Origin: Sipunculus nudus
Lineage: Eukaryota; Annelida; Sipuncula; Golfingiida; Sipunculidae
DNA length: 64,000 bases
NCBI GenBank assembly: GCA_026874595.1
Contig: CM049313.1
Location: 68,812,659-68,876,658 of the forward strand
Direction: 5' to 3'
The notes below the pieces were generated by a model that did not search any database, had not been told where the DNA came from, and saw only the letters and a program-made list of their open reading frames with translations. Positions within the stretch are counted from its first letter, which is position 1, and every line of letters begins with the position of its first letter. Both the position numbers and the translations under genes were made by a program. Shown in pieces: positions 7,101 through 57,550 of this stretch.

Positions 7101-10100
7101 AAAAGATATATAATGTATTACATTTGAATGTATATTTCAACATTTTTAATTTTTTTATTTGATATTTCATTATGTTAGTAATATACATTATGATTTTATT
7201 TAAATAAATTAAAATTACTTAAATTCAAATAAGGAATGATGCGTTGGTGCTATGGGCTTGACTTCCGAATTTTATGCATTTTAAACATGATCTGTCACTT
7301 CCGGATGACTTGCAAGAGGCTTCCGACGCATTAAATATGCTTTAATTTTCATATACGGGAATATATATCCTTGAAACTTTCTTGTATGACAAAGGTGTCT
7401 ATATCTTCCATTTTAATACAAAAAAGTGATGGTATGATCGTTATTTTATAAAATTATACTAAAAAATAAAAAGGCTTCCGACTTCCGAAGGCTTCCGAGT
7501 TTTATTAATTGCCGATGAAAACTTATTTATTTGTTATGTATCTAATCACTCAGGCTGTGGCCCAGCAGGGTAAGGCAGGCTTCTATGAGGGCCGTATCGC
7601 CCAGGCCATCGTTGACGCCGTGGGTCGTTACGGGGGAGTCATGTCGGTGGATGACCTTAGAAACCACACCAGCACACTGGTCGACCCCGTCTTCACGGAC
7701 TTCAAGGGACATCGGATGTACGAGATCCCGCCAAATGGCCAGGGAATCATCGCGCTCATGATCCTTAACATACTTGAGGCGTATGACCTTCAAGGTAAGG
7801 ATATTCATGACCCTCATTATACTAGAGGGGTTCGAGCTTCAAGATAAAAACCTCCCATGATCCTCACCATATTTCAGGTGTATATGATCTTCAAAGTAAA
7901 AACATTCATCATCCTCAATATACTTGAGGCGTACGATCTTCATATTGAACGCACCCATCTTCCTCAATATAAAAGAGGAGTACGATCCTCAAGGTAACGC
8001 CCCCATCTTCCTCAATATACTAGAGGCACATGATCTTCAAGGTAAACGCACCCATCTTCCTCAATATACTAGAGGCACATGATCTTCAAGGTATCGCACC
8101 CATCTTCCTCTATATACTAGAGGCACATGATCTTCAAGGTATCGCACCCATCTTCCTCTATATACTAGAGGCACATGATCTTCAAGGTAAACGCACCCAT
8201 CTTCCTCAATATACTAGAGGCACATGATCTTCAAGGTAAACGCACCCATCTTCCTCAATATACTAGAGGCACATGATCTTCAAGGTAAACGCACCCATCT
8301 TCCTCAATATACTAGAGGCACATGATCTTCAAGGTAAACGCACCCATCTTCCTCAATATACTAGAGGCACATGATCTTCAAGGTAAACGCACCCATCTTC
8401 CTCAATATACTAGAGGCACATGATCTTCAAGGTAAACGCACCCATCTTACATAATATATAAAAGAGGCGTACGATCTTCAAGGTAAACGCACCCATCTTA
8501 CATAATATATAAAAGAGGCGTACGATCTTCAAGGTAAACGCACCCATCTTACATAATATATAAAAGAGGCGTACGATCTTCAAGGTAAACGCACCCATCT
8601 TACATAATATATAAAAGAGGCGTACGATCTTCAAGGTAAACGCACCCATCTTCCTCAATATACTAGAGGCACATGATCTTCAAGGTAAACGCACCCATCT
8701 TCCTCAATATACTAGAGGCACATGATCTTCAAGGTAAACGCACCCATCTTCCTCAATATACTAGAGGCACATGATCTTCAAGGTAAACGCACCCATCTTC
8801 CTCAATATACTAGAGGCACATGATCTTCAAGGTAAACGCACCCATCTTCCTCAATATACTAGAGGCACATGATCTTCAAGGTAAACGCACCCATCTTCCT
8901 CAATATACTAGAGGCACATGATCTTCAAGGTAAACGCACCCATCTTCCTCAATATACTAGAGGCACATGATCTTCAAGGTAAACGCACCCATCTTCCTCA
9001 ATATACTAGAGGCACATGATCTTCAAGGTAAACGCACCCATCTTCCTCAATATACTAGAGGCACATGATCTTCAAGGTAAACGCACCCATCTTCCTCAAT
9101 ATACTAGAGGCACATGATCTTCAAGGTAAACGCACCCATCTTCCTCAATATACTAGAGGCACATGATCTTCAAGGTAAACGCACCCATCTTCCTCAATAT
9201 ACTAGAGGCACATGATCTTCAAGGTAAACGCACCCATCTTCCTCAATATACTAGAGGCACATGATCTTCAAGGTAAACGCACCCATCTTCCTCAATATAC
9301 TAGAGGCACATGATCTTCAAGGTAAACGCACCCATCTTCCTCAATATACTAGAGGCACATGATCTTCAAGGTAAACGCACCCATCTTCCTCAATATACTA
9401 GAGGCACATGATCTTCAAGGTAAACGCACCCATCTTCCTCAATATACTAGAGGCACATGATCTTCAAGGTAAACGCACCCATCTTCCTCAATATACTAGA
9501 GGCACATGATCTTCAAGGTAAACGCACCCATCTTCCTCAATATACTAGAGGCACATGATCTTCAAGGTAAACGCACCCATCTTCCTCAATATACTAGAGG
9601 CACATGATCTTCAAGGTAAACGCACCCATCTTCCTCAATATACTAGAGGCACATGATCTTCAAGGTAAACGCACCCATCTTCCTCAATATACTAGAGGCA
9701 CATGATCTTCAAGGTAAACGCACCCATCTTCCTCAATATACTAGAGGCACATGATCTTCAAGGTAAACGCACCCATCTTCCTCAATATACTAGAGGCACA
9801 TGATCTTCAAGGTAAACGCACCCATCTTACATAATATATAAAAGAGGCGTACGATCTTCAAGGTAAACGCACCCATCTTACATAATATATAAAAGAGGCG
9901 TACGATCTTCAAGGTAAACGCACCCATCTTACATAATATATAAAAGAGGCGTACGATCTTCAAGGTAAACGCACCCATCTTACATAATATATAAAAGAGG
10001 CGTACGATCTTCAAGGTAAACGCACCCATCTTACATAATATATAAAAGAGGCGTACGATCTTCAAGGTAAACGCACCCATCTTACATAATATATAAAAGA

Positions 10101-13100
10101 GGCGTACGATCTTCAAGGTAAACGCACCCATCTTACATAATATATAAAAGAGGCGTACGATCTTCAAGGTAAACGCACCCATCTTACATAATATATAAAA
10201 GAGGCGTACGATCTTCAAGGTAAACGCACCCATCTTACATAATATATAAAAGAGGCGTACGATCTTCAAGGTAAACGCACCCATCTTACATAATATATAA
10301 AAGAGGCGTACGATCTTCAAGGTAAACGCACCCATCTTACATAATATATAAAAGAGGCGTACGATCTTCAAGGTAAACGCACCCATCTTACATAATATAT
10401 AAAAGAGGCGTACGATCTTCAAGGTAAACGCACCCATCTTACATAATATATAAAAGAGGCGTACGATCTTCAAGGTAAACGCACCCATCTTACATAATAT
10501 ATAAAAGAGGCGTACGATCTTCAAGGTAAACGCACCCATCTTACATAATATATAAAAGAGGCGTACGATCTTCAAGGTAAACGCACCCATCTTACATAAT
10601 ATATAAAAGAGGCGTACGATCTTCAAGGTAAACGCACCCATCTTACATAATATATAAAAGAGGCGTACGATCTTCAAGGTAAACGCACCCATCTTACATA
10701 ATATATAAAAGAGGCGTACGATCTTCAAGGTAAACGCACCCATCTTACATAATATATAAAAGAGGCGTACGATCTTCAAGGTAAACGCACCCATCTTACA
10801 TAATATATAAAAGAAGCTTACGATCTTCAAGGTAAACGCACCCATCTTACATAATATATAAAAGAGGCGTACGATCTTCAAGGTAAACGCACCCATCTTA
10901 CATAATATATAAAAGAGGCGTACGATCTTCAAGGTAAACGCACCCATCTTACATAATATATAAAAGAGGCGTACGATCTTCAAGGTAAACGCACCCATCT
11001 TACATAATATATAAAAGAGGCGTACGATCTTCAAGGTAAACGCACCCATCTTACATAATATATAAAAGAGGCGTACGATCTTCAAGGTAAACGCACCCAT
11101 CTTACATAATATATAAAAGAGGCGTACGATCTTCAAGGTAAACGCACCCATCTTACATAATATATAAAAGAGGCGTACGATCTTCAAGGTAAACGCACCC
11201 ATCTTACATAATATATAAAAGAGGCGTACGATCTTCAAGGTAAACGCACCCATCTTACATAATATATAAAAGAGGCGTACGATCTTCAAGGTAAACGCAC
11301 CCATCTTACATAATATATAAAAGAGGCGTACGATCTTCAAGGTAAACGCACCCATCTTACATAATATATAAAAGAGGCGTACGATCTTCAAGGTAAACGC
11401 ACCCATCTTACATAATATATAAAAGAGGCGTACGATCTTCAAGGTAAACACTCATCATCCTTCTTAATATATAAAATAGACGTACGACCTCAAGGTAAAC
11501 GTGCGATCTTCAAGGAAATCGTACGTTATTCAAGGTAAACGCACGCACGATCTCTGCCGATTATGGAGCTGATGGAGGCGATAATAATAATGGTGACTAT
11601 GGTGATGATAATAATGATGATGATGCTAATGCTGATTATGATAATGATTAAGACGATGAAGATGATGGCAGCAACCATAGGTTGAGATAATGATGATTAC
11701 AATAATGATCACTGCTATTCTCAGCATTGATGTTGTAGCCCTTGGCCACAATACCGGGGAATACCTACACCGCCTGATCGAGGCGACTCGTCTGTCGTTC
11801 GCCGACGGTCTCTACTACATCGCCGACCCTGATCACGTGAGTGTGCCGATAGCTGGCATGCTGGACAAAAACTATGCCGCTCAGAGGAGGGGTCTTATCA
11901 ATCCTGACCTGTAAGTAACTTAGTTAAGAATGCAAGCAATACCAAACTTGTAATTAATAAAAAAAGGGAAATTTCTACAGGGGGCGTTTTTGTTAAGTTT
12001 TACAGTACTTTTACTATACACAGGAGACGTGTCAAAGTCTTTTCAACCCACTTATTTTAAATTGTTGCTATAAAAATTAATTTAAAACAGTACGGACACC
12101 TAAAACATGTGAAATTGACTTCGCCGTAAATTATCTTGGATTCTGAGCGTATGAACTTTATTAGTAACCTGTAATTCTTACAGTTCTTTCAGGAAACTGA
12201 ACAATTATATCCAGTTGAATAGCTAGGCTTTCATATGTACAACTTTTATCAAATAGAATACGGGTAGTCGACAAGCGACTACGTGTATCCGCCTAAATCA
12301 GAGTGGAACGGGTGAAGTGAGGCATGGATTGAATGGCAAGGGGAAATAGAGTGAAGTGTTGCATATTAGCATGGATGTCTGCAGCCAAATGGTGTATGTA
12401 GGTTGTCTGCTGCATAAACTAGAATGCAGGTGGCGCCACCTGTCATAAAATCAAGAGAGCTGTCGGGGATGTTTAAACCTGCAAAATTTTAGGCAGATAT
12501 GTAAAACCACTGCCGAGATATGAGTGATTTTATCCCATGGCAGACAAACAGACGGGAGCTGTGCAAAAATGGCTGCAAGTGGCGCCACCAGTTTTGCGTA
12601 TGATGAAGAGCTATGTGAGATCTATACACATGCAAAATTTTGGCCCAATAGGTCAAACGGTTCCCGAGATATGAGCTTGGATGTCTGCAGCGTAAACGTG
12701 AATGTAGGTGGCGCCACCTGTCATAAAATCAGAAAAGCTATCCAGGATGTATACGCATGCCGAATTTCAGGTGAATTAGTCAAGTCACTGCAGAGATATG
12801 AGTGATTTTATCCCATGGCAAACTAACAGACGGGAGCTGTGCAAAAATGGCTGCAGGTGGCGCCACCAGTTTTGCGTATGATGAAGAGCTATGTGAGATC
12901 TATACACATGCAAAATTTTGGCCCAATCGGTCAAACGATTCCCGAGATATGAGCTTGGATGTCTGCAGCGTAAACGTGAATGTAGGTGGCGCCACCTGTC
13001 TTAAAATCAGAAAAGCTATCCAGGATGTATACGCATGCCGAATTTCAGGTGAATTAGTCAAATCACCGCAGAGATATGAGTGATTTTAACCCAAGGCAGA

Positions 13101-14421
13101 CGAACAGATGGACACTGTGCAAACATGGTTGCAGGTAGTGCCACCATTTCTTGTGTATGTTATAAAGCTCTCCTAGGGCTACATTTGTGCAAAAAAATTT
13201 TCCTGATCGGTCAAACGGTTCCCGAGATATGAGCTTGGATGTCTGCAGCGTAAACGTGAATGTAGGTGGCGCCACCTGTCATAAAATCAGAAAAGCTATC
13301 CAGGATGTATACGCATGCCGAATTTCAGGTGAATTAGTCAAATCAGTGCAGAGATATGAGTGATTTTAACCCAAGGCAGACGAACAGATGGACACTGTGC
13401 AAACATGGTTGCAGGTGGCGCCACCATTTTTTGTGTATGTTATAAAGCTCTCCAAGGGCTACATTTGTGCAAAAAAATTTTCCTGATCGGTCAAACGGTT
13501 CCCGAGATATGAGCTTGGATGTCTGCAGCGTAAACGTGAATGTAGGTGGCGCCACCTGTCATAAAATCAGAAAAGCTATCCAGGATGTATACGCATGCCG
13601 AATTTCAGGTGAATTAGTCAAATCACTGCAGAGATATGAGTGATTTTAACCCAAGGCAGACGAACAGATGGACACTGTGCAAACATGGTTGCAGGTGGCG
13701 CCACCATTTCTTGTGTATGTTATGAAGCTCTCCAAGGGCTACATTTGTGCAAAAAAATTTCCTGATCCGTCAAACGGTTCCCGAGATATGTGGGTTTATG
13801 TGTGAAAACAGACGCACAAACGGACGCAGAGCGCAGAGGAAAGGTCAGAGGTCAAAACAAAATCGGGGCGCAGCAGTTCACATGTGACCCGAACATAATC
13901 TCGGGTTTCGTAAAATTCCGCCCAGCGGTTACGGAGGAGTTCTCCGGACACCTACGCGGCGGCGGCGGCGGCGGCGTGCAGCTGAAAACATAGTATCCGG
14001 AAAACTCTGTTTTGGCGGATACAATTATATTATACATTATGTAAGAAAGGGCTGTTAAAGCCGGGACCGCTGCTGAACCACGTGACCGATGATGGCATTC
14101 ACAGATACACACTGAATAATTTAAGATTATTTTAATTATAGGGCTATGGACGAGGTTCCTCGTGGTACCCCACCTGGGGCGTCTGACCCCCTGCCCGTGG
14201 GTGACACCCCGGAGGGTAAGGACACCGTGTACTTCACCGTGACAGACCGCACGGGTAACGCCTGCTCGTTCATTCAGAGGTAAACAGATGTAAACAGGGT
14301 TATAAATTTTGAAAAGGGGAGCTTTTAAAGTTTTATTCAAATAAAAAACACCATATATATAAATAAAAATTGTTTCATATATAACCTTTTTCATGTTTAA
14401 CCTTATATAACTGGATCATAT

Positions 14422-14493
<72 letters not shown>

Positions 14494-16407
14494 CTTTCGT
14501 TTTGAATTAACACATAGACACAAGGTTACGTTGAATTATTTTTGTTTTATGAAAATATGGCCTCATGCACAATAATAATATGCGAGAGAGATGACATACA
14601 ATGTATATATATATGACATGGTGCATATACTGATGATCTAAAATCCCGTGGAAGTGGTATACATACATCACGCGCTTACAAGTGACATGGCTATGAAAGT
14701 GTACTGTCAACGTGTGAAGACAGACGAAGAAGAAACTCATTTAATTGGAGAGATTCATCTATTGGCATGCGCACTAGCAAGTATGCACTTTGCACAGAGT
14801 GCATAATAAATTAGTCTGTTCAAAAGGCGGTAAGGAAAATCTCATATACTATATTTGCCCAATGTTTCGTAGTACCAAAAGTACCAAAACTTTTTTTATT
14901 GGCCGCGCGATAATCGGACCTGGCGCAACTACCAATATAAAAGGCGACAGTAAGATGACCGACATATCCGACAAATTTCTTCCCGTGTTCATAATAGGCC
15001 GACGCTGATTATTTCGCACGCTTTTTGGGAAATTCATGCAAGCGTCAGAAACTCTCATATTTACCCGACAAACCCCACCAGTTTTTTTTGTCAAAAGCCC
15101 AAATGTTCCGAGCTTTAGGTTAAACGTTTATTTGTAATATAATTGCATTTTGAACTCGGTAACTTGTTAACATCTATTATAAAGAATTCAACAATAAACA
15201 ATGCACAAAATATAGCCTGTGTTTGTATACAAATTTTTGTGCAAGGAAACCTGTGTGGTTCAGTCACGAGCAGCAATGCATGATCGTTGATTATATACTT
15301 AACCGAGGAGCAAAAACACTCGTAGCATGAAAATGCAGGGTCGTAGCCTGAATTTATTCTGAGAGGGTGGGTGGGTGGGGATAGTAAACTCTTTGTCAGT
15401 TCGAAAAATAACGAGGGGTCGTAGCCCCCGACGGGGGAGGGGTTGGGAGGGGGAAAGCCCCCTTCCACGTTGTGCAATGTTTTTTTAAATACATGCTTTA
15501 CATTGGCATTTCTGTGGGTATTGTTCTTATAATATAAGCTCTAAACACAGACACTTTATTTTTATTCACAGGGTGCTTTTTATCCTGCTTTCTTTTTTAA
15601 CTTTCTTTCAGAAACTGTCATCATTTTTCTGCCCCTTAGAATGCCCATATTTCGGGGGGGGGGGGGGGCAGCCAGGGAGGCTACGGTACTGAAGTGCCTT
15701 TTCAATGTAAATTCCTAATACATTATTATTACAGCTATCTTAATTTTTTATACTGTGAGTACATAGACTTATTTTTGTGCAGTAATTACATGGGATTTTA
15801 TTTTTATACAGCTATACACTGGATTTTATTTTTTATATATAGTAACGGCATGGCATTTTTTTCTATGCCAGTTATAACTATACATTTGATTTCATTGTTT
15901 ATATCTAGTAACTATGCGGGATTCGGAACCGGGATAGTGCCGGAGGGCTGCGGATTTACTCTACAAAACAGAGCTAACAACTTCTCCCTGGAGCCAAATC
16001 ACCCCAACGTGCTGGCGCCTAACAAGAGGCCGTACCATACCATCATTCCCTGCATGGTCACCAACACACAAACGGGTGTGTGTATAACAGATACATTTCC
16101 TAATTGATAGTTCATACTCTTACAATAAGTTTCTCCAGTGGATGTCCATTGACATTTCATGATTAGTCTCTCAAATTTAAATATTATCACACAGTGTACC
16201 ACTTGCTTTGATAATTATATTTTATAGAAAATTAACGAAACTCACCAACCAATAGGCAGATACTTTTTAATTGTTCATTCCTTTTATAACTTAGTTGTAA
16301 CTTACATTTTATACCAGGTAAGCCAATTTATACATAAATAATATGTGCCAGCATCTCTTTCTGGAACAGACTATAGTTCTAACATAATCTCTGAACCAGA
16401 CACATAT

Positions 16408-20878: not shown

Positions 20879-21576
20879 CTAGAATACGGGTAGTCGACAT
20901 GCGACTACATGTATCCGTCAAAATCGTCGGACGGGTGAAGTGAGGCATGGATTGAGTGGCAAGGGGAAATATAGTTAGATGTGTTACATATTAGCATGGA
21001 TGTCTGCCACGTAAACATGATTGTAGGTGGCGCCACCTGTTATTTGAACGAGAAACCATCCAAGATGTATACACATGCAAAATTTCAGGTTAAAAAGTCA
21101 AAACACTGCCGAGATATGAGATTTTATCCCACAGCAGACAAACAGATGGACGCTTTGCAAAAATGGTTGCAGGTAGCGCCACCATTTTTTGTGTATGATA
21201 AAGAGCTATGTGAGATCCAAACACATGGGAAACTTCAGGAAAATACGTCAAACCAGTCCAAAGATATTAGCATGGATATCTGCAGCATGAACTTGAATGT
21301 AGGTGGCGCCACCTGTCACAAAATTAGAAAAGCTTTCCATGATGTATAAGCATGCCAAATATCAGGTGTATAAGTCAAACCACTGCCGAGATATGAATGA
21401 TTTTAAACCAAGTCAAACTAACAGATGAACGCTGTGCAAAAATGGTTGCAGGTGGCGCCATCAGTTTCTAGTATGATAAAGAGCTATGTGAGGTCTAAAC
21501 ACATGCAAATTTTCAGGAAGATACGTCAAACCAGTCCGGAGATATAGGCATGGATGTCTTCAGCGTGAACGTGATT
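20879..21576 (+). mobile_element. F1 array element, truncated copy
   Basis: It starts CTAGAATACGGGTAGTCGAC with the family hairpin, followed by about five GGTGGCGCCACC-type cores (one GGTAGCGCCACC, one ending CCATCA). It breaks off around 21576 without the GGCGGATAC end and joins F2'-type sequence. Confidence 0.7.
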
Positions 21577-36506: not shown

Positions 36507-39500
36507 CAAGTGACCCATGGGTCATGACGCTCAGCTGACTGGGAAGAGATTCGCAAAAGGAAATTTTATCATCAGAATGGTAGTATATACCCATTCAACT
36601 GAAGCATCAAACAGATTAACCAACAGGCCAAGATTTAGTCTGTATTTTTATATCTCAAAAATAGAGAAAAATGTGTAAACTTTTAAATCTAGAATACGGG
36701 TAACCGACAATTGACTTCATGTATCTGCCAAAATCGGATAGTGAGGCATGGATTGAGTGGCAAGGGGAAATAGAGTGAGGAATGTTGCATATTAGCATGG
36801 ATGTCTGCAGCCTAAATGTGTATGTAGGTTGTGCCACCTACCACAAATCCAGAAAGCTGTCCAAGTTGTATACACCTGCAGAAAAGTCAAACCACTACAT
36901 GTATATGAGCGATTTTTGCCCATGGCAGACAAACAGACAAACACTGTGCAAAAATCTTTGCAGGTAACCCCTCCAGTTTTGTGTATGATAAAGATCTGTG
37001 TGAGATCTAAACACATGCACAATTTTGGCCCAATCGGTCAAATGGTTCCTGAGATATGAGCTTGGATGTGTGCAGCGTTAACTAGAATATAGGTGGCGCA
37101 ACCTGTCATAAAATCAAGAAAGCTGTCCACGATGTATAAACCTGCAAAATTTTAGGCAGTTATGTCGAACCACTACAGAGAAATGAGTGATTTTAGGCCA
37201 CGGCAGACTAACAGACAGACGCTGTGCAAACATTGTTACAGGTGGCGCCACCATTTTTTGTGTATGTTACAGAGCTATCAAAGGGCTACATTTGTATAAA
37301 TTTTATTTCCTGATCGGTCAAACGGTTCCCGAGATATAAGCTTGGATGTCATCAGCGTGAACGTGAACGTAGGTGGCGCCATCTGTCATAAAATCAAGAA
37401 AGCTATCCTGGATGTATACGCATGACGAATTTCAGGTGAATTAGTCAATTCACTGCAGAGATATGAGTGATTTTAACCCAAGGCAGATGAACAGATGGAC
37501 ACTGTGCAAACATGACTACAGGTGGCGCCACCATTTTTGTGTATGTTATAAAGAAATCCAAGGGCTACATTTGTATCAATTTTATTTCCTGATCGGTCAA
37601 ACGGTTCCCGAGATATGAGGGTTTATGAGTGGAAACAGACCCACAAATGGACACTGGATAGAGAGGAAAGGTCAGAGGTCAACACACATTGGTTAGGCAC
37701 CAGTTCACATGTGACCCGATAATAGGTATAAGTTTGGGAAAAAATCGGTCCATTAGTCTCCGAGGAGCTCTCTGGAAACGAACGCTGCGGCGGCGGAGGA
37801 ACTCAGTCAAAAACATAGTATCCGCAAAACTTCGTTTTGGCGGATACAAAAATACAGGTGGCTCCACCAGTCTGCAGAAACTAATAAAAACACTTAATGG
37901 TCAATATCCATGCAAAAAATCATGGTGATCTCTGCATTAGTTGTTCAGATACTTCAGTTTTTGTATCAAATTGTCCATTATTCTGAGGGATACTTCGGAG
38001 TCCTATAGCTTGAAGGATATGGGTAACAGAGACCTAATTTCAAGTTTCCACAGGCACCTTTCATGGGCCTCCTTGCATGACAAGAATGAAGATTCTAGGT
38101 CCAGTTGTTGCGATTTGTACCCTGTTGACAGATAACCACATCTTTAAAGGTCTCAAAAAAAAGAAAAAAATTCATAAAAATTTGAAAAAAAATAGAGGTG
38201 GCACACCCAGTCTGCAGAAACTGATGGAACAGCTCATGATCAATATGTATGCCGAAAATCATGACCATCAGTGTTGTAGTTATTAAAATACTGCAGTTTT
38301 TGTATCAAATTTTCCATTATTTGGGGGGGGGGGGGGTATTTTGGACCCATACAGCTTAAAGAATATGGGTAACAGAGACCTAATTTCAAGTTTCCATGGA
38401 GACTTTTCATGGGTCTCCCTGTGTGTCAAGAATGAAGATTCTTGGTCCAGTTTTTATGATTTGTGCCCTGTTAACAGATGTTCATATCTTTAAAGGTCTA
38501 AAAAATACAGAAAAATTTCGTAAAAACCGAACAAATACAGGTGGTGCCACCAGTCTGCAGAAACTTATGAAACACTCCATGATCAATATCCATGCAAACA
38601 ATTATGGTTATCTCTGCATTAGTTGTTCAGATACTTTAGCTTTTGTATCAAATTTTCCATTATTCTGAGCTGTACTTTGGAGTGCCATAGCTCAAAGGAT
38701 ATGGGTAACAGAGACCAAATTTCAGGTTTCCATGGAGATTTATCATGGGTCTCCCTGTGTGTCAAGAACGAAGATTCTAGGTCCAGTCGTTACGATTTGT
38801 ACCCTGTTGACAGATAACTACATCCTTAAAGGTCTCAAAAATGGAGAAAACAATTCGTGAACATTGAAAAATACAGGTGGCGCCACCAGTCTGCACAAAC
38901 TGATGAAACATCTCATGATCAATATGTATGTCGAAAATCATGACCATCAGTGATGTAGTTAATGAGATATTGCAGTTTTTGTATGGAATTTTTGACTATT
39001 CTGGGGGGTAATTTTGGGCCCCATAGCTCGAAGGATATGGGTAACAGAGACCTAATTTCAAGTTTCCATGGAGACTTTTCATGGGTCTCCCTGTGTGTCA
39101 AGAATGAAGATTCTTGGTCCAGTTTTTTATGATTTGTGCCCTGTTAACAGATGTTCATATCTTTAAAGGTCTAAAAAATACAGAAAAATTTCGTAAAAAA
39201 AACCGAACAAATACAGGTGGTGCCACCAGTCTGCAGAAACTTATGAAACACTCCATGATCAATATCCATGCAAACAATTATGGTTATCTCTGCATTAGTT
39301 GTTCAGATACTTTAGCTTTTGTATCAAATTTTCCATTATTCTGAGCTGTACTTTGGAGTGCCATAGCTCAAAGGATATGGGTAACAGAGACCAAATTTCA
39401 GGTTTCCATGGAGACTTATCATGGGTCTCCCTGTGTGTCAAGAACGAAGATTCTAGGTCCAGTCGTTATGATTTGTACCCTGTTGACAGATAACTACATC

Positions 39501-40569
39501 CTTAAAGGTCTCAAAAATGGAGAAAACAATTCGTGAACATTGAAAAATACAGGTGGCGCCACCAGTCTGCACAAACTGATGAAACATCTCATGATCAATA
39601 TGTATGTCGAAAATCATGACCATCAGTGATGTAGTTAATGAGATATTGAAGTTTTTGTATGAAATTTTTGACTATTCTGGGGGGTAATTTTGGGCCCCAT
39701 AGCTCGAAGGATATGGGTAACAGAGACCTAATTTCTGGTTTCCATGGAGACTTTTCATAGGTCTCTCAGTGTGTCGAAAATGAAGATTCTAGGTCCAGTC
39801 GTTACGATTTGTGCCACGCTAACAGATGACAGCATCCTCAAAGGTCTCAAAAATAGAGGAAAAAATCGTAAAAAATCAAACAGTACAGGTGGCGCCACCA
39901 GTCTGCAGGAACTGATCGAACATCTGATGATCAATATGTATGCCAAAAATGAAGACCATCAGTGATGTAGTTATTGAGATATTGAAGTTTTTGTATGAAA
40001 TTTTTTACTATTCTGGGGGGTACTTTGGGGCCCCATAGCTCGAAGGATATGGGTAACAGAGACCTAATTTCTGGTTTCCAAGGAGATTTTTCATGGACCT
40101 CTCAGTGTGTCAAGAATTAAGATTCTAAGTCCAGTCTTTATGATTTGTGCCTTGTTAACAGATGTTCACATTTTTAAAGGTCTAAAAAATAGAGAAAAAA
40201 AATTCATAAAAAATCGAAAAATACAGGTGGCGCCACCAGTCTGCAGGAAGTGATGTAACATCTCATGATCAATATGTATGCCAAAAATCATGACCATCAG
40301 TCAAGTAGTTAATGAGATATTGAAGTTTTTGTATGAAATTTTTGACTTTTCTGGGGGGTACTTTGGGGCCACATAGCTCGAAGGATATGGGTAACAGAGA
40401 CCTAATTTCTGGTTTCCAAGGAGATTTTTTATGGACCTCTCAGAATCCCAAGTTACAAGGTTCTAGGACCAGCGGTTACGATTTATGCCTGGTTAACGGA
40501 CGGACAGACGGACGACGGACAAAGAGTGATCGCTATAGCTCAGATGACTTTCAGTCAGCCGAGCTAAAA
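36507..40569 (+). mobile_element. F2 element with about eight tandem units of 338 bp
   Basis: Starts CAAGTGACCCATGGGTCATG and ends GACGGACGACGGACAAAGAG, then the hairpin TAGCTCAG ... GTCAGCCGAGCTAAAAA (40532-40570). Inside is a tandem array (37857-40480) with cores at about 38198, 38539, 38877, 39217, 39553, 39886 and 40227. Two adjacent units form a 676-bp dimer that is nearly identical at 38396-38900 and 39072-39580. An F1 element (36689-37848) is inserted near its 5' end; the copy at 41945-41985 shows the uninterrupted site. Confidence 0.75.
36689..37848 (+). mobile_element. F1 array element, complete copy inside F2
   Basis: Starts CTAGAATACGGGTAACCGAC and ends in a hairpin: GTATCCGCAAAAC at 37819-37831 pairs with GTTTTGGCGGATAC at 37834-37847. 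Palindrome cores lie at about 36828 (degenerate), 37094, 37243, 37373 and 37523. The flanks TAAACTTTTAAAT and AAAAATACAGGTGGC join as in the uninterrupted copy at 41960-41985, without a clear target duplication. Confidence 0.75.
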
Positions 40570-53004: not shown

Positions 53005-55059
53005 ATTATAACATTCATCTAGTTTATGCACCAGCTGGGGAGGGGGGGGGGGGGATGAGTGCAAGGCAGAGGGGAAGCCTGCTAGTTGTGGCCAAGCTGG
53101 GCCAAGGTAATCTGCATGGGGTTGGTTACATAATGCAAGTGAAGGCTGTACTACTAGGTGGGCTAGATGTAAACAACACTTGACATGGTGTATGAAATAA
53201 TAAATAAAAGCTATTCATTCCAATCAATTTCTTTTGAAAGTTCAGATTTTAAAAGATTAAATCCTTATGCATACAGCTGGGAAAATTAAATCAACAGTGC
53301 CAAAGTTGGACAAAATTTTAGGTATTGATTTTTTATTTATGCTTATAACTTGAAAAATTTACAAAATTCAGATCTAATTTTGGGTAAACAATTGAATCTT
53401 GATTAAATGAAGTTATATTCCTGAAAAAAAGTCTCTAGGTTCAGCAATTCTCATGTTAGGTGAGTAAATATATTTCCTGATTTTTAAAAAAATAGCATTA
53501 TGTTTTGGCCCATAACTTCAAAATAATACCCAATACTGACCTAATTTTTGGTATGTTCATAGAAAATGTATAAAAGAATGTGAATACTAAATACGATCAA
53601 AAACAGATCAGTGGTTTTGATATGAGGCAGCCTTGAAGTGTAACAATGGCTTTTTTTTATGGAAAACAGAGTTTTTTTTCCTTAATATCTCGAAGGAACA
53701 AAGTCCTAATGACCCAATTTTCGGTATGGTAGGAGATTTTGGGGACATCTAAAATTATGTCAACAGCCTGGGGAGCATAGAGATGTGCACTGAATGACCT
53801 ACAGTCATCAAAGTGGACTGCTTGACAATGTAAGGGAATACAACAAGAGCCTCCAAAAAAATTCAATAACTAGCCTAATTTTGCAGCTTTTATTTTCAAA
53901 TATCAGATTTTAACAGATTAAATCCTTATGTATACATGCTGTGAAAATTAAATCCACAGACAGATAACTACATCCTTAAAGGTCTCAAAAATTGAGAAAA
54001 AAATTGTAAAATTTTGAAAAATACAGGTGGCGCCACCAGTCTGCAGAAACTGATGAAACATCTCATGATCAATATGTATGCCAAAAATCATGACCATCAG
54101 TGATGTAGTTAATCAGATATTGAAGTTTTTTTATGAAATTTTTTACTATTCTGGGGGCTACTTTGGGGCTCCATAGCTCAAAGGATATGGGTAACAGAGA
54201 CCTAATTTCTGGTTTCCATGGAGACTTTTCATAGGTCTCTCAGAATGTTAAGAATAAAGATTCTAGGTCCAGTCTTTACGATTTGTGCCCTGTTAACAGA
54301 TGTCCACATTTTTAAAGGTCTCAAAAATAGAGAAAACAATTCGTAAAAAATAAAAAAATACAGGTGGCACCATCAGTCTCCAGAAACTGATGAAACATCT
54401 CATGATCAATATGTATGCCAAAAATCATGACTATCAGTGATGTAGTTAATCAAATATTGAAGTTTTTGTATGAAATTTTTCACTATTCTGGGGGGGTACT
54501 TTGGGGCCCCATAGCTGGAAGGATATGGGTAACAGAGACCTAATTTCTGGTTTCCATGGAGACTTTTCATAGGCCTCTCAGAATGTCAAGAATGAAGATT
54601 CTAGGTCCTGTTTTAACAATTTGTGCCCTGTTAACAGATGTCCACATTTTTAAAGGTCTCAAAAATAGAGAAAAATATTCGTAAAAAAAAAAAAAAATAC
54701 AGGTGGCGCCACCAGTCTGCAGAAACTGATGGAACATCTAATGATCAATACGTATGCCAAAAATCATGACCATCAGTGATGTAGTTAATGAGATATTAAA
54801 GTTTTTGTATGAAATTTTTTACTATTCTGGGGGTTACTTTGGGGCCCCATAGCTCCAAGGATATGGGTAACAGAGACCTAATTCCAGGTTTCCAAGGAGA
54901 TTTTTCATGGACCTCTCTGGATGTAAAGTAAGAAGATTCCAGGTCCAGCGGTTACGATTTGTGCCTTGTTAACGGACAGACGGCCGGATGGCTGGACGGA
55001 CGATGAGACAAAGAGTGATCGCTATAGCTCAGATGACTTACAGTCAGCTGAGCTAAAAA

Positions 55060-57550
55060 CTAGAAATTGGTAATCAACAAGCGACTATGTGTATCTGCCA
55101 AAAAAAGTGGGTAAGGTGAACTGAGGCATGGATTGAGTGGCAAGGGGAAAAAGAGTGAGGTGTGTTGCATAATACCCTGGATGTCTGCAGCCGAAATGTT
55201 TGTAGGTTGCGCCACCTACCACAAAATTCAGAAAGCTATCCAAGATGTATTAACATGCAAAATTTAAGGCAGATAAGTCAAACCACTACTGAGATATGAG
55301 TGATTTTAGCCCACGGGAGACAAAGAGACACTGTGCAAAAATGGTGGCAGGTGACACCACCAATTTTGTGTATGTTTAAGAGCTATGTGAGATCTATACA
55401 CATTCAAAATTTCAGGGGGATATGTCAAACCAGTTCTGAGACATAAGCCTGAATGTCTGCAGCGTAAACATAAATGTAGGTGGCGCTACCTGCCAAAAAA
55501 ATCCAGAAAGTTATCCAAGATGTATAAACATGCATAATTTTAGGCAGTTAAGACCACTACTAACATATGAGTGATTTTAGCCCACGGCAGACAAACAGAC
55601 GGATGCTGTGCAAAAATGGTGGCAGGTGGCACCACAAATTTTGTGTATGATTAAGAGCTATGTGAGATCTATAACATGCAAAATTTAAGGAGGATATGTC
55701 AAACCAGTCTTGAGATATAAGCCTGAATGTCTGCAGAGTATACATAAATGTAGGTGGCGCCACCTGCCACAAAATCCAGAAAGCTATCCAAGATGTATAA
55801 ACTTGCAAAATTTTCGGCAGATAAGTCAAACCACTGCCGAGATATAAATGATTTTATCCCACAGCAAACAAACAGACGGATGCTTAAACGTGAAAGTATG
55901 TGGCTTCACCTCTCATAAAACAATAAAAATGTCAAAGATGTATAAAACCTGCAAAATATCAGGTGGATAAGTCAAACAACTGCGGAGATAGGAGTGATTT
56001 TATCCAACCGCAAACAAACAGAAGATTGCTGTGCAAAAATGGTTGCAGGTGGCACCACCAGTTTTGCGTATGATAAAGAGCTATCGTAGATCTATACACA
56101 TGCAAAATTTTGGCCCAACTGGTCAAATGGTTCCCGAGATATGAGCTTGGATGTCTGCAGCTTAAACGTGAAAGTAGGTGGCGTCACCTGTCATAAAATC
56201 AAGAAAGCTGTCCAGGATGTATACACATGCAAAATTTTACGTTGATAAGTCCAACCAATGCAGAGATATATGTGTTTTTATCCCAAGGCAGATGAACAGA
56301 TGACGCTGTGCAAAAATGGTGGCAGGTGGCGCCACCAATTTTGTGCATGATTAAGAGATATGCGAGATCTTTACACATGCAAAATTTCAGGGGGATATGT
56401 CAAAGCAGTCCTGAGATATAAGCCTGAATGTCTGCAGCATATACATAAATGTAGGTGGCGCCACCTGCCACAAAATCAAGCAAGCTATCCAAGATGTATA
56501 AACATGCAAAATTTTAGGCAGATAAGTCAAACCACTACTGAGATATGAGTGATTTTAGCCCACGGCAGACAAACAGACAGACGCTGTGCAAAAATGGTGG
56601 CAGGTGGCACCACCAATTTTGTGTATGATTAAGAGCTATGTGAGATCTATACACATGCAAAATTTCAGGGGGATATGTCCTGAGATACAAGCTTGAATGT
56701 CTGCAGAGTATACATAAATGTAGGTGGCTATGCGAGATCTATAAACATGCAAAATTTTTGCCCAAAACGGTCAAACAGTTCCTGAGATATGAGCTTGGAT
56801 GTCTGCAGCGTAAATTTGAATGTAGGTGGCGCCACCTGTCATAAAATCAAGAAAGCTGTCGAGGATGTATAAACCTGCAAAATATCAGGTGGATAAGTCA
56901 AACCACTGCTGAGATATGAGTGATTTTATCCCAAGGCAGACGAACAGATGGACATTGTGCAAAAATGGTTGCAGGTGGCGCCACCAGTTTTGCATATGAT
57001 GAAAAGCTATGGGAGATCTATACACATGCAAAATTTTGGCCCAACTGGTTTAGGTTCCCGAGATATGAGCTTGGATCTTTGCTGCTTAAAAGTGAATGTA
57101 GGTGGCGCCTCCTGTCATAAAATCAAGAAAGCTGTCCAGGATGTATACACATGCAAAATTTCAGGTGGATAAGTCCAACCAATGCAGAGATATGAATGTT
57201 TTTATCCCAAGGCAGATGAACAGATTGCTGCTGTGCAAAAATGGTTGCAGGTGGTGCCACCATTTTTAGTGTATGTTATAAAGCTTTCCAACAGCTACAT
57301 TTGTGCAAAATCTTTAGCCTTATCGGTCAAACGGTTCCCGAGATATGTGGGTTTATGTGTGGAAACAGATGCACAAATGGAAGCTGGTCAGAGAGGAAAT
57401 GTCAGAGGTCAACCAAAAATGCAGGCGCAGCAGTTCACACGCGACCGATCATTATTCCGAATTTTTTAAAAATTCTGCCCAGTGGTTATGGAGGAGTTCT
57501 CCAGAAACCTATGCGGCAATGGCGGCAGCGTCAGCGTCCGACTGAAAACA
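55060..57550 (+). mobile_element. F1 array element, long copy lacking its 3' hairpin
   Basis: Starts CTAGAAATTGGTAATCAACA, a decayed form of the family start. It has about fifteen palindrome cores, for example at about 55481, 55757, 56322, 56455, 56826, 56974 and 57106, and ends at GACTGAAAACA where intact copies continue TAGTATCCG. It lies directly between the end of F2 and the resumed F3. Confidence 0.7.

Follow-up and report, generated by a model that had tools for sequence, protein, structure and literature searches.

An exon end and its splice donor multiplied within an intron of a gamma-glutamyltranspeptidase-family gene

The host gene and the array in its intron

The stretch of DNA analysed (64,000 nt, hereafter the window) holds, between positions 977 and 16992, nine exon-level stretches that match a paralogue (C3) in order (tblastn). 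Profile matches to PF01019 (gamma-glutamyltranspeptidase family) on the host-gene stretch cover positions 2 to 452 of 512, and the host gene was identified by exons E and F, which together match this family at 3.6e-38 in a profile search; the predicted product is a gamma-glutamyltransferase-like enzyme. Exon E is 59% identical to the C3 paralogue over a 96-column tblastn alignment that reaches slightly into the intron, and it joins exon F in phase 1 across an intron of 3,944 nt (Table 1). By homology, the next exon but one ends at 14279 with GAG/GTAAAC as its donor at 14280, and it joins the following exon in frame (FIQ-S-NYAGFG, against FIN-S-NYMGFG in the paralogue). The C3 paralogue lacks the intron at 14280-15908, the stretches on either side of it lying there in a single open frame; by this comparison it may have been either lost in the paralogue or gained in the window gene.

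Table 1. Exons, splice donor and repeat blocks at the array locus (window positions).
Feature	Positions	Strand	Basis or remark
Exon E, gamma-glutamyltranspeptidase-family gene	7554..7794	+	241-nt open frame; ends ...NILEAYDLQ, phase 1
Founder stretch (exon E, final 38 nt; intron, first 11 nt)	7757..7805	+	Sequence reading; unit alignment
Native donor AAG/GTAAGG (CAAG/GTAAGG)	7792..7800	+	8.81 bits; U1 duplex -10.0 kcal/mol
Intron E-F, 3,944 nt, almost wholly array	7795..11738	+	Boundaries from frame and homology
Units 2-5, degenerate proximal edge	7812..8009	+	Dead donors in 2 and 4, weak ones in 3 and 5
First A block, units 6-14 (9 units; 7-9 variant)	8010..8448	+	Unit parse
First B block, 4 units	8449..8652	+	Unit parse
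Second A block, 24 identical units	8653..9828	+	Unit parse
Second B block, 31 units, 30 identical	9829..11409	+	Unit parse
Degenerate distal edge	11410..11560	+	Parse end; last overlapping TRF row stops at 11545
Exon F	11739..11910	+	Frame, PF01019 profile, paralogue homology

From the end of exon E to about position 11550, a unit of 49-51 nt is repeated head to tail. The founder stretch is bounded by CATGAT (7757), which comes back as CATGAC (7806), and the unit begins 38 nt inside the exon. The parse gave 75 units, a figure that includes the one in the exon and a composite final unit; 30 of them are exact copies of type A (49 nt) and 34 of type B (51 nt). Within 7741-11600, GGTAAAC was counted 69 times, CAAGGTAAACG 68 times and AAGGTA 73 times, confirming the extent and the figure of about 69 donor copies given by a sequence-only reading of this DNA. 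The same reading placed CAAG/GTAAAC in every unit; most units do carry it, but it is altered in unit 2 (AAG/ATAAAA), unit 3 (AAA/GTAAAA), unit 4 (ATA/TTGAAC), unit 5 (GTAACG), units 7 and 8 (GTATCG) and one distal unit (GGAAATC). Unit 6 is the first with a full decoy donor, its GT at 8042 lying 247 nt downstream of the native GT at 7795.

Two further repeat features were seen in the window. Each B unit (8449-8652, 9829-11409) carries TATATAAAAG, which we take to resemble a TATA box and which is present in about 35 tandem copies in the intron. Arrays with longer units, of ~277-338 nt, lie at 12404-13790, 20988-21574, 37033-37616, 37848-40434, 53976-54973 and 55882-56679; several of these show GGTGGCGCCACC or close forms of it, dispersed through the window.

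Origin of the units and known repeats of this kind

The unit at the exon end (7763-7811) is identical to an A unit at 34 of 49 positions, ungapped, and to a B unit in 32 of 51 columns, and the alignment score was reached by none of 20,000 single-letter shuffles for either type. The array units are homologous to the terminal part of exon E with its donor, as had been proposed from the letters alone, and aligning unit to exon puts their similarity beyond chance. The proposal that exon and units both read NILEA-DLQG is correct for A units, but in B units EAYDLQG follows a TAA in that frame. Chance similarity, or the arrival of an unrelated satellite next to exon E, might be argued from the shortness of the exon segment and from nothing else. 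Besides the shuffles, the head-to-tail register runs unbroken from the exon, and a search of the whole assembly with a 27-nt unit pattern (at most three mismatches) returned 66 forward matches, every one in the array, and a single reverse match, with three mismatches, on contig C14 (0 and 0 for the backwards control). On these grounds such an origin was rejected, its probability being negligible.

In the C3 paralogue, the one paralogue compared, an intron of 541 nt stands at the same position and in the same phase and contains no array. If the duplication had created the intron, relatives without the duplication should lack it; since the paralogue holds the intron without the array, the array was discarded as its creator and had no part in its origin. 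Tandem duplication across an intron-exon boundary is described for potato RdRp and for human paralogues with variable tandem repeats in the accessible portions of two reports (PMC4974935, PMC2812944); unlike those cases, no new intron is seen here, the array-free paralogue sharing the one that holds the array. Unit homology and the paralogue comparison together support the exon-intron boundary as the source of the array, as the sequence-only reading had held.

Along the intron, the diverged units 2-5 give way to a block of A units, then to 4 B, 24 A and 31 B units, and finally to diverged units again, the interior being homogenised and the edges worn. We infer that the process began with a tandem duplication, possibly between CATGAT and CATGAC, of a stretch that holds the exon E terminus with its donor; the copies would then have diverged, and blocks of types A and B may have grown through unequal exchange or slippage, leaving the array edges behind during homogenisation.

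Unit 4 differs from the exon at five of 30 nt. Four of these differences fall at third positions and are synonymous; the remaining one, nt 30, changes Gln to His at the point where the donor of unit 4 has decayed. In the first 29 nt, four of four differences are thus synonymous, for which the chance without constraint is about 0.002-0.006, an illustrative figure because unit 4 was picked for being closest to the exon and nt 30 was excluded. Over the same ten codons, an A unit compared by eye shows five synonymous differences plus a Tyr-to-His change. Of the four synonymous sites in unit 4, three have the unit's letter in the paralogue exon (CTC, AAT, GAT) and one has that of exon E, which may be no more than chance would give. 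These differences hint at changes in the exon after the first duplication and at a young age of the identical blocks; as a means of dating the first duplication, the synonymous changes are suggestive only.

The marks of a mirage minisatellite were taken to be repeats that span an exon-intron boundary, splice signals in part of the units, a uniform interior with worn edges, undisturbed splicing, and length instability between alleles or cells. Here the stretch at 7757-7805 spans the donor with the array in register, many of the units but not all keep the splice signal (the 68 copies of CAAGGTAAACG, against the altered units 2-5, 7, 8 and one distal unit), and exact A and B blocks lie between degenerate units 2-5 and 74-75. 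Amphioxus mirages are described in Adh3, TnC and the globins BflGb6 and BflGb9, with imperfect ones in PGBD5, and the accessible text of these reports presents them as leaving splicing undisturbed (PMC3087553, PMC3902484). As given there, the Adh3 units measure 10-72 bp, a range that includes the 49-51 nt found here, and two BflGb6 haplotypes hold 6 and 3 copies, against about 75 units in the present array. The assembly gave five matches to mir-2, four of which lie within 2.2 kb (a match in one prokaryote control stayed below the cut-off), and one match to bantam. We take mir-2 and bantam to be protostome markers; with both present, the array's host is probably a protostome rather than a cephalochordate like amphioxus. 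Searches for hemocyanin (PF14830) and GFP (PF01353) gave no match, and their controls were silent too, which makes them uninformative. No protostome mirage was found in the open-licence literature, in searches that were not aimed at protostomes.

The 31-bp repeat of human CBS, named c.1444_1467+7 and present in 16-21 copies according to the part of the source available (PMC2630376), also lies in an enzyme gene and has the same layout, its unit comprising, by its name, 24 exonic nt and the first 7 nt of the intron; the gene, however, is unrelated, and the CBS units are fewer and shorter. The minisatellite of human IFI6 (6-16) is similar in that its units supply splice donors; it differs in lying in an unrelated gene and in the reported use of decoys, two downstream donors being used (Turri 1995, as excerpted through PMC4526556). 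Because mirages have been described in amphioxus and the CBS repeat has the same layout, the kind is not new, and the array is an unusually large example of it.

Donor strength and splice choice

Donors were scored with a matrix built from 49 donors inferred in related family genes, the native one included; the matrix is partly circular, since these were chosen from homologous exon ends rather than from cDNA. The unit donor (CAAG/GTAAAC) scored 5.79 bits against 8.81 for the native donor, and 18 of the 49 inferred donors score no higher than the unit donor. Two of the 49 are GTAAAC and nine lack G at +5. Pairing with U1 followed the same order, at -10.0 kcal/mol for the native donor and -6.8 for the units, with the exon F donor at -7.0. 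The proximal donors scored -1.4 (unit 2), 3.67 (unit 3), -6.13 (unit 4) and 4.09 bits (unit 5), and those of units 7 and 8 scored 1.53 bits. The suggestion that the intron sets decoys beside the real donor therefore stands in part: the units carry plausible donors by the genome's own standard, but the nearest ones are dead or weak. The idea that the decoys are altogether dead found no support, given the two GTAAAC donors among the 49 and another at 14280 in the host gene. Elsewhere in the window, 174 of the 3,169 GT dinucleotides on the + strand equal or exceed the score of the unit donor and 14 equal or exceed that of the native donor, so sites of unit grade are common. Masking of the decoys by RNA structure received no support from folding against 200 shuffles each (z of -1.54 for the exon unit, 0.07 for two A units and -1.82 for two B units).

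Reading on from exon E into the intron meets an in-frame stop at 7845-7847, and array donors that extend exon E therefore yield a truncated frame; from this sequence, use of a decoy would mostly destroy the message. The native donor is presumably used as the first in line and the best-scoring of exon E's options, the closest decoys being broken or weak, and a message in which exon E was extended to a decoy would carry the stop and be lost. The array is a mirage-type minisatellite and probably mostly passive in splicing.

The main rival, by analogy with what has been proposed for CBS, is that copy number tunes the enzyme: some seventy decoys would compete for U1 and divert some transcripts into stop-containing or retained forms, so that a longer array would mean less enzyme. 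Several observations that favour this rival also weigh against passivity, namely that the array donors are not unusually weak here but fall inside the range of inferred real donors and that the host gene itself appears to use GAG/GTAAAC after the exon ending at 14279. The stop at 7845 would give such diversion its effect. The 31-bp repeat of human CBS reportedly goes with reduced enzyme activity, going by the title of a paper by Lievers et al. from 2001. The exon F donor, which pairs with U1 about as weakly as the units do, also speaks against passivity, as do the downstream IFI6 units reported as used donors, as far as the excerpted source goes (PMC4526556). Against tuning stand the broken or weak state of the nearest decoys, the abundance of chance GT sites of unit grade, and the undisturbed splicing reported for amphioxus mirages in the accessible text (PMC3087553, PMC3902484), and we regard it as unlikely.

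The units might also form a reservoir of micro-exons. A and B units could each provide an 18-nt exon in phase 1-1 (AG/AGGCRYAYGATCTTCAAG/GT), running from the internal AG to the donor and adding EAHDLQ (A) or EAYDLQ (B), a repeat of exon E's own last residues. The frame stays open with either insertion between E and F, and 16-nt alternatives shift it and run into a stop; however, just 31-33 nt of intron would separate adjacent units, the acceptors are putative, and the phase is explained by homology with no need for selection. Such a role is very improbable. Recursive splicing, in which the intron would be removed stepwise at AG/GT junctions, could draw on AAG/GTAAAC in the intact units, but AAG is a poor acceptor, no strong pyrimidine tract is seen before it by eye, and the 541-nt paralogue intron has no such array; its likelihood is slighter still.

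Boundary self-copies elsewhere in the genome

Self-copies at exon boundaries were found at 6 of 131 sampled exons, one of them weak, in two small samples from chosen families. In the first sample, 83 of 84 gamma-glutamyltranspeptidase-family exons were tested (one was cut by a locus end), and four had a nearby self-copy at an exon end, the same four appearing with shorter flanks: the window array, a pair at a donor on C12, a pair at an acceptor on C7, and a weak case at the acceptor at 15909. The C12 pair (C12:29507590-29507819; L003 591-820) is a 114-bp tandem duplication, 99% identical, that spans the exon end and the donor AAAAC/GTAAGT of another family gene. It shows that a two-copy stage exists and may represent the beginning of such an array. 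On C7, a 63-bp tandem pair, 92% identical, spans the acceptor and exon start at the exon match 72976987-72977160 (L008). In the window, 28-nt AT-rich repeats (TRF 15769-15833) occupy 15769-15908 together with less regular copies that end in AG, before the exon at 15909. This acceptor lead is weak: its score was reached by 1 of 2,000 shuffles when the intron part was included and by 328 of 2,000 when only the exon part was used, the latter being not beyond chance.

The second sample comprised 49 of 63 PF00118 (chaperonin) matches, of which 48 were tested; nine identical-score matches, two more on small contigs and three in long open frames were omitted. The nine (C61, C62, C66, C72, C73, C75, C89 with two, and C99) lie in 547-aa open frames and are perhaps of bacterial origin. 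Acceptor copies were found at 2 of the 48. On C1, units of ~30 nt (CAG/GTATAACCTCTT-like) precede a PF00118 exon (exon match 13059699-13059860, - strand; L055), a run that by its sequence is an acceptor-side mirage. The other, on C12, was detected by BLAST only (85% over 40 nt) and not by TRF.

By one common measure, tandem duplications cross 5 of 254 boundary points (4 of 124 at acceptors, 1 of 130 at donors), 44 of 1,106 points inside introns and none of the 131 exon midpoints. The exon ends in this count are profile ends rather than exact boundaries, and the window donor scored as a miss because the profile match extends past it. The 44 intronic crossings come from 21 exons and are therefore not independent; ten of these fall next to exons E and F, largely in this array, and without those points the count is 34/1,096. 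A special hot spot at boundaries received no support, and the duplication process looks ordinary, since intronic points are crossed at least as often; the array event fits a general tandem-duplication process that is mostly excluded by coding sequence.

A bolder combination, in which the array is a length-variable governor of splicing that also supplies in-frame EAYDLQ micro-exons, and mirages are widespread in the lineage on both sides of introns, chaperonin genes included, is a long shot; if it were true, copy number would set the amount and form of the enzyme, the decoys draining U1 from the native site. Whichever reading applies, some seventy near-identical decoys behind one donor are a natural test of whether the spliceosome chooses the first or the strongest site, and the same series tests whether copy number alters output. 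The sampled exons suggest that mirages extend beyond amphioxus and may be frequent in this genome, and a genome-wide count would reveal how often they feed new splice forms.
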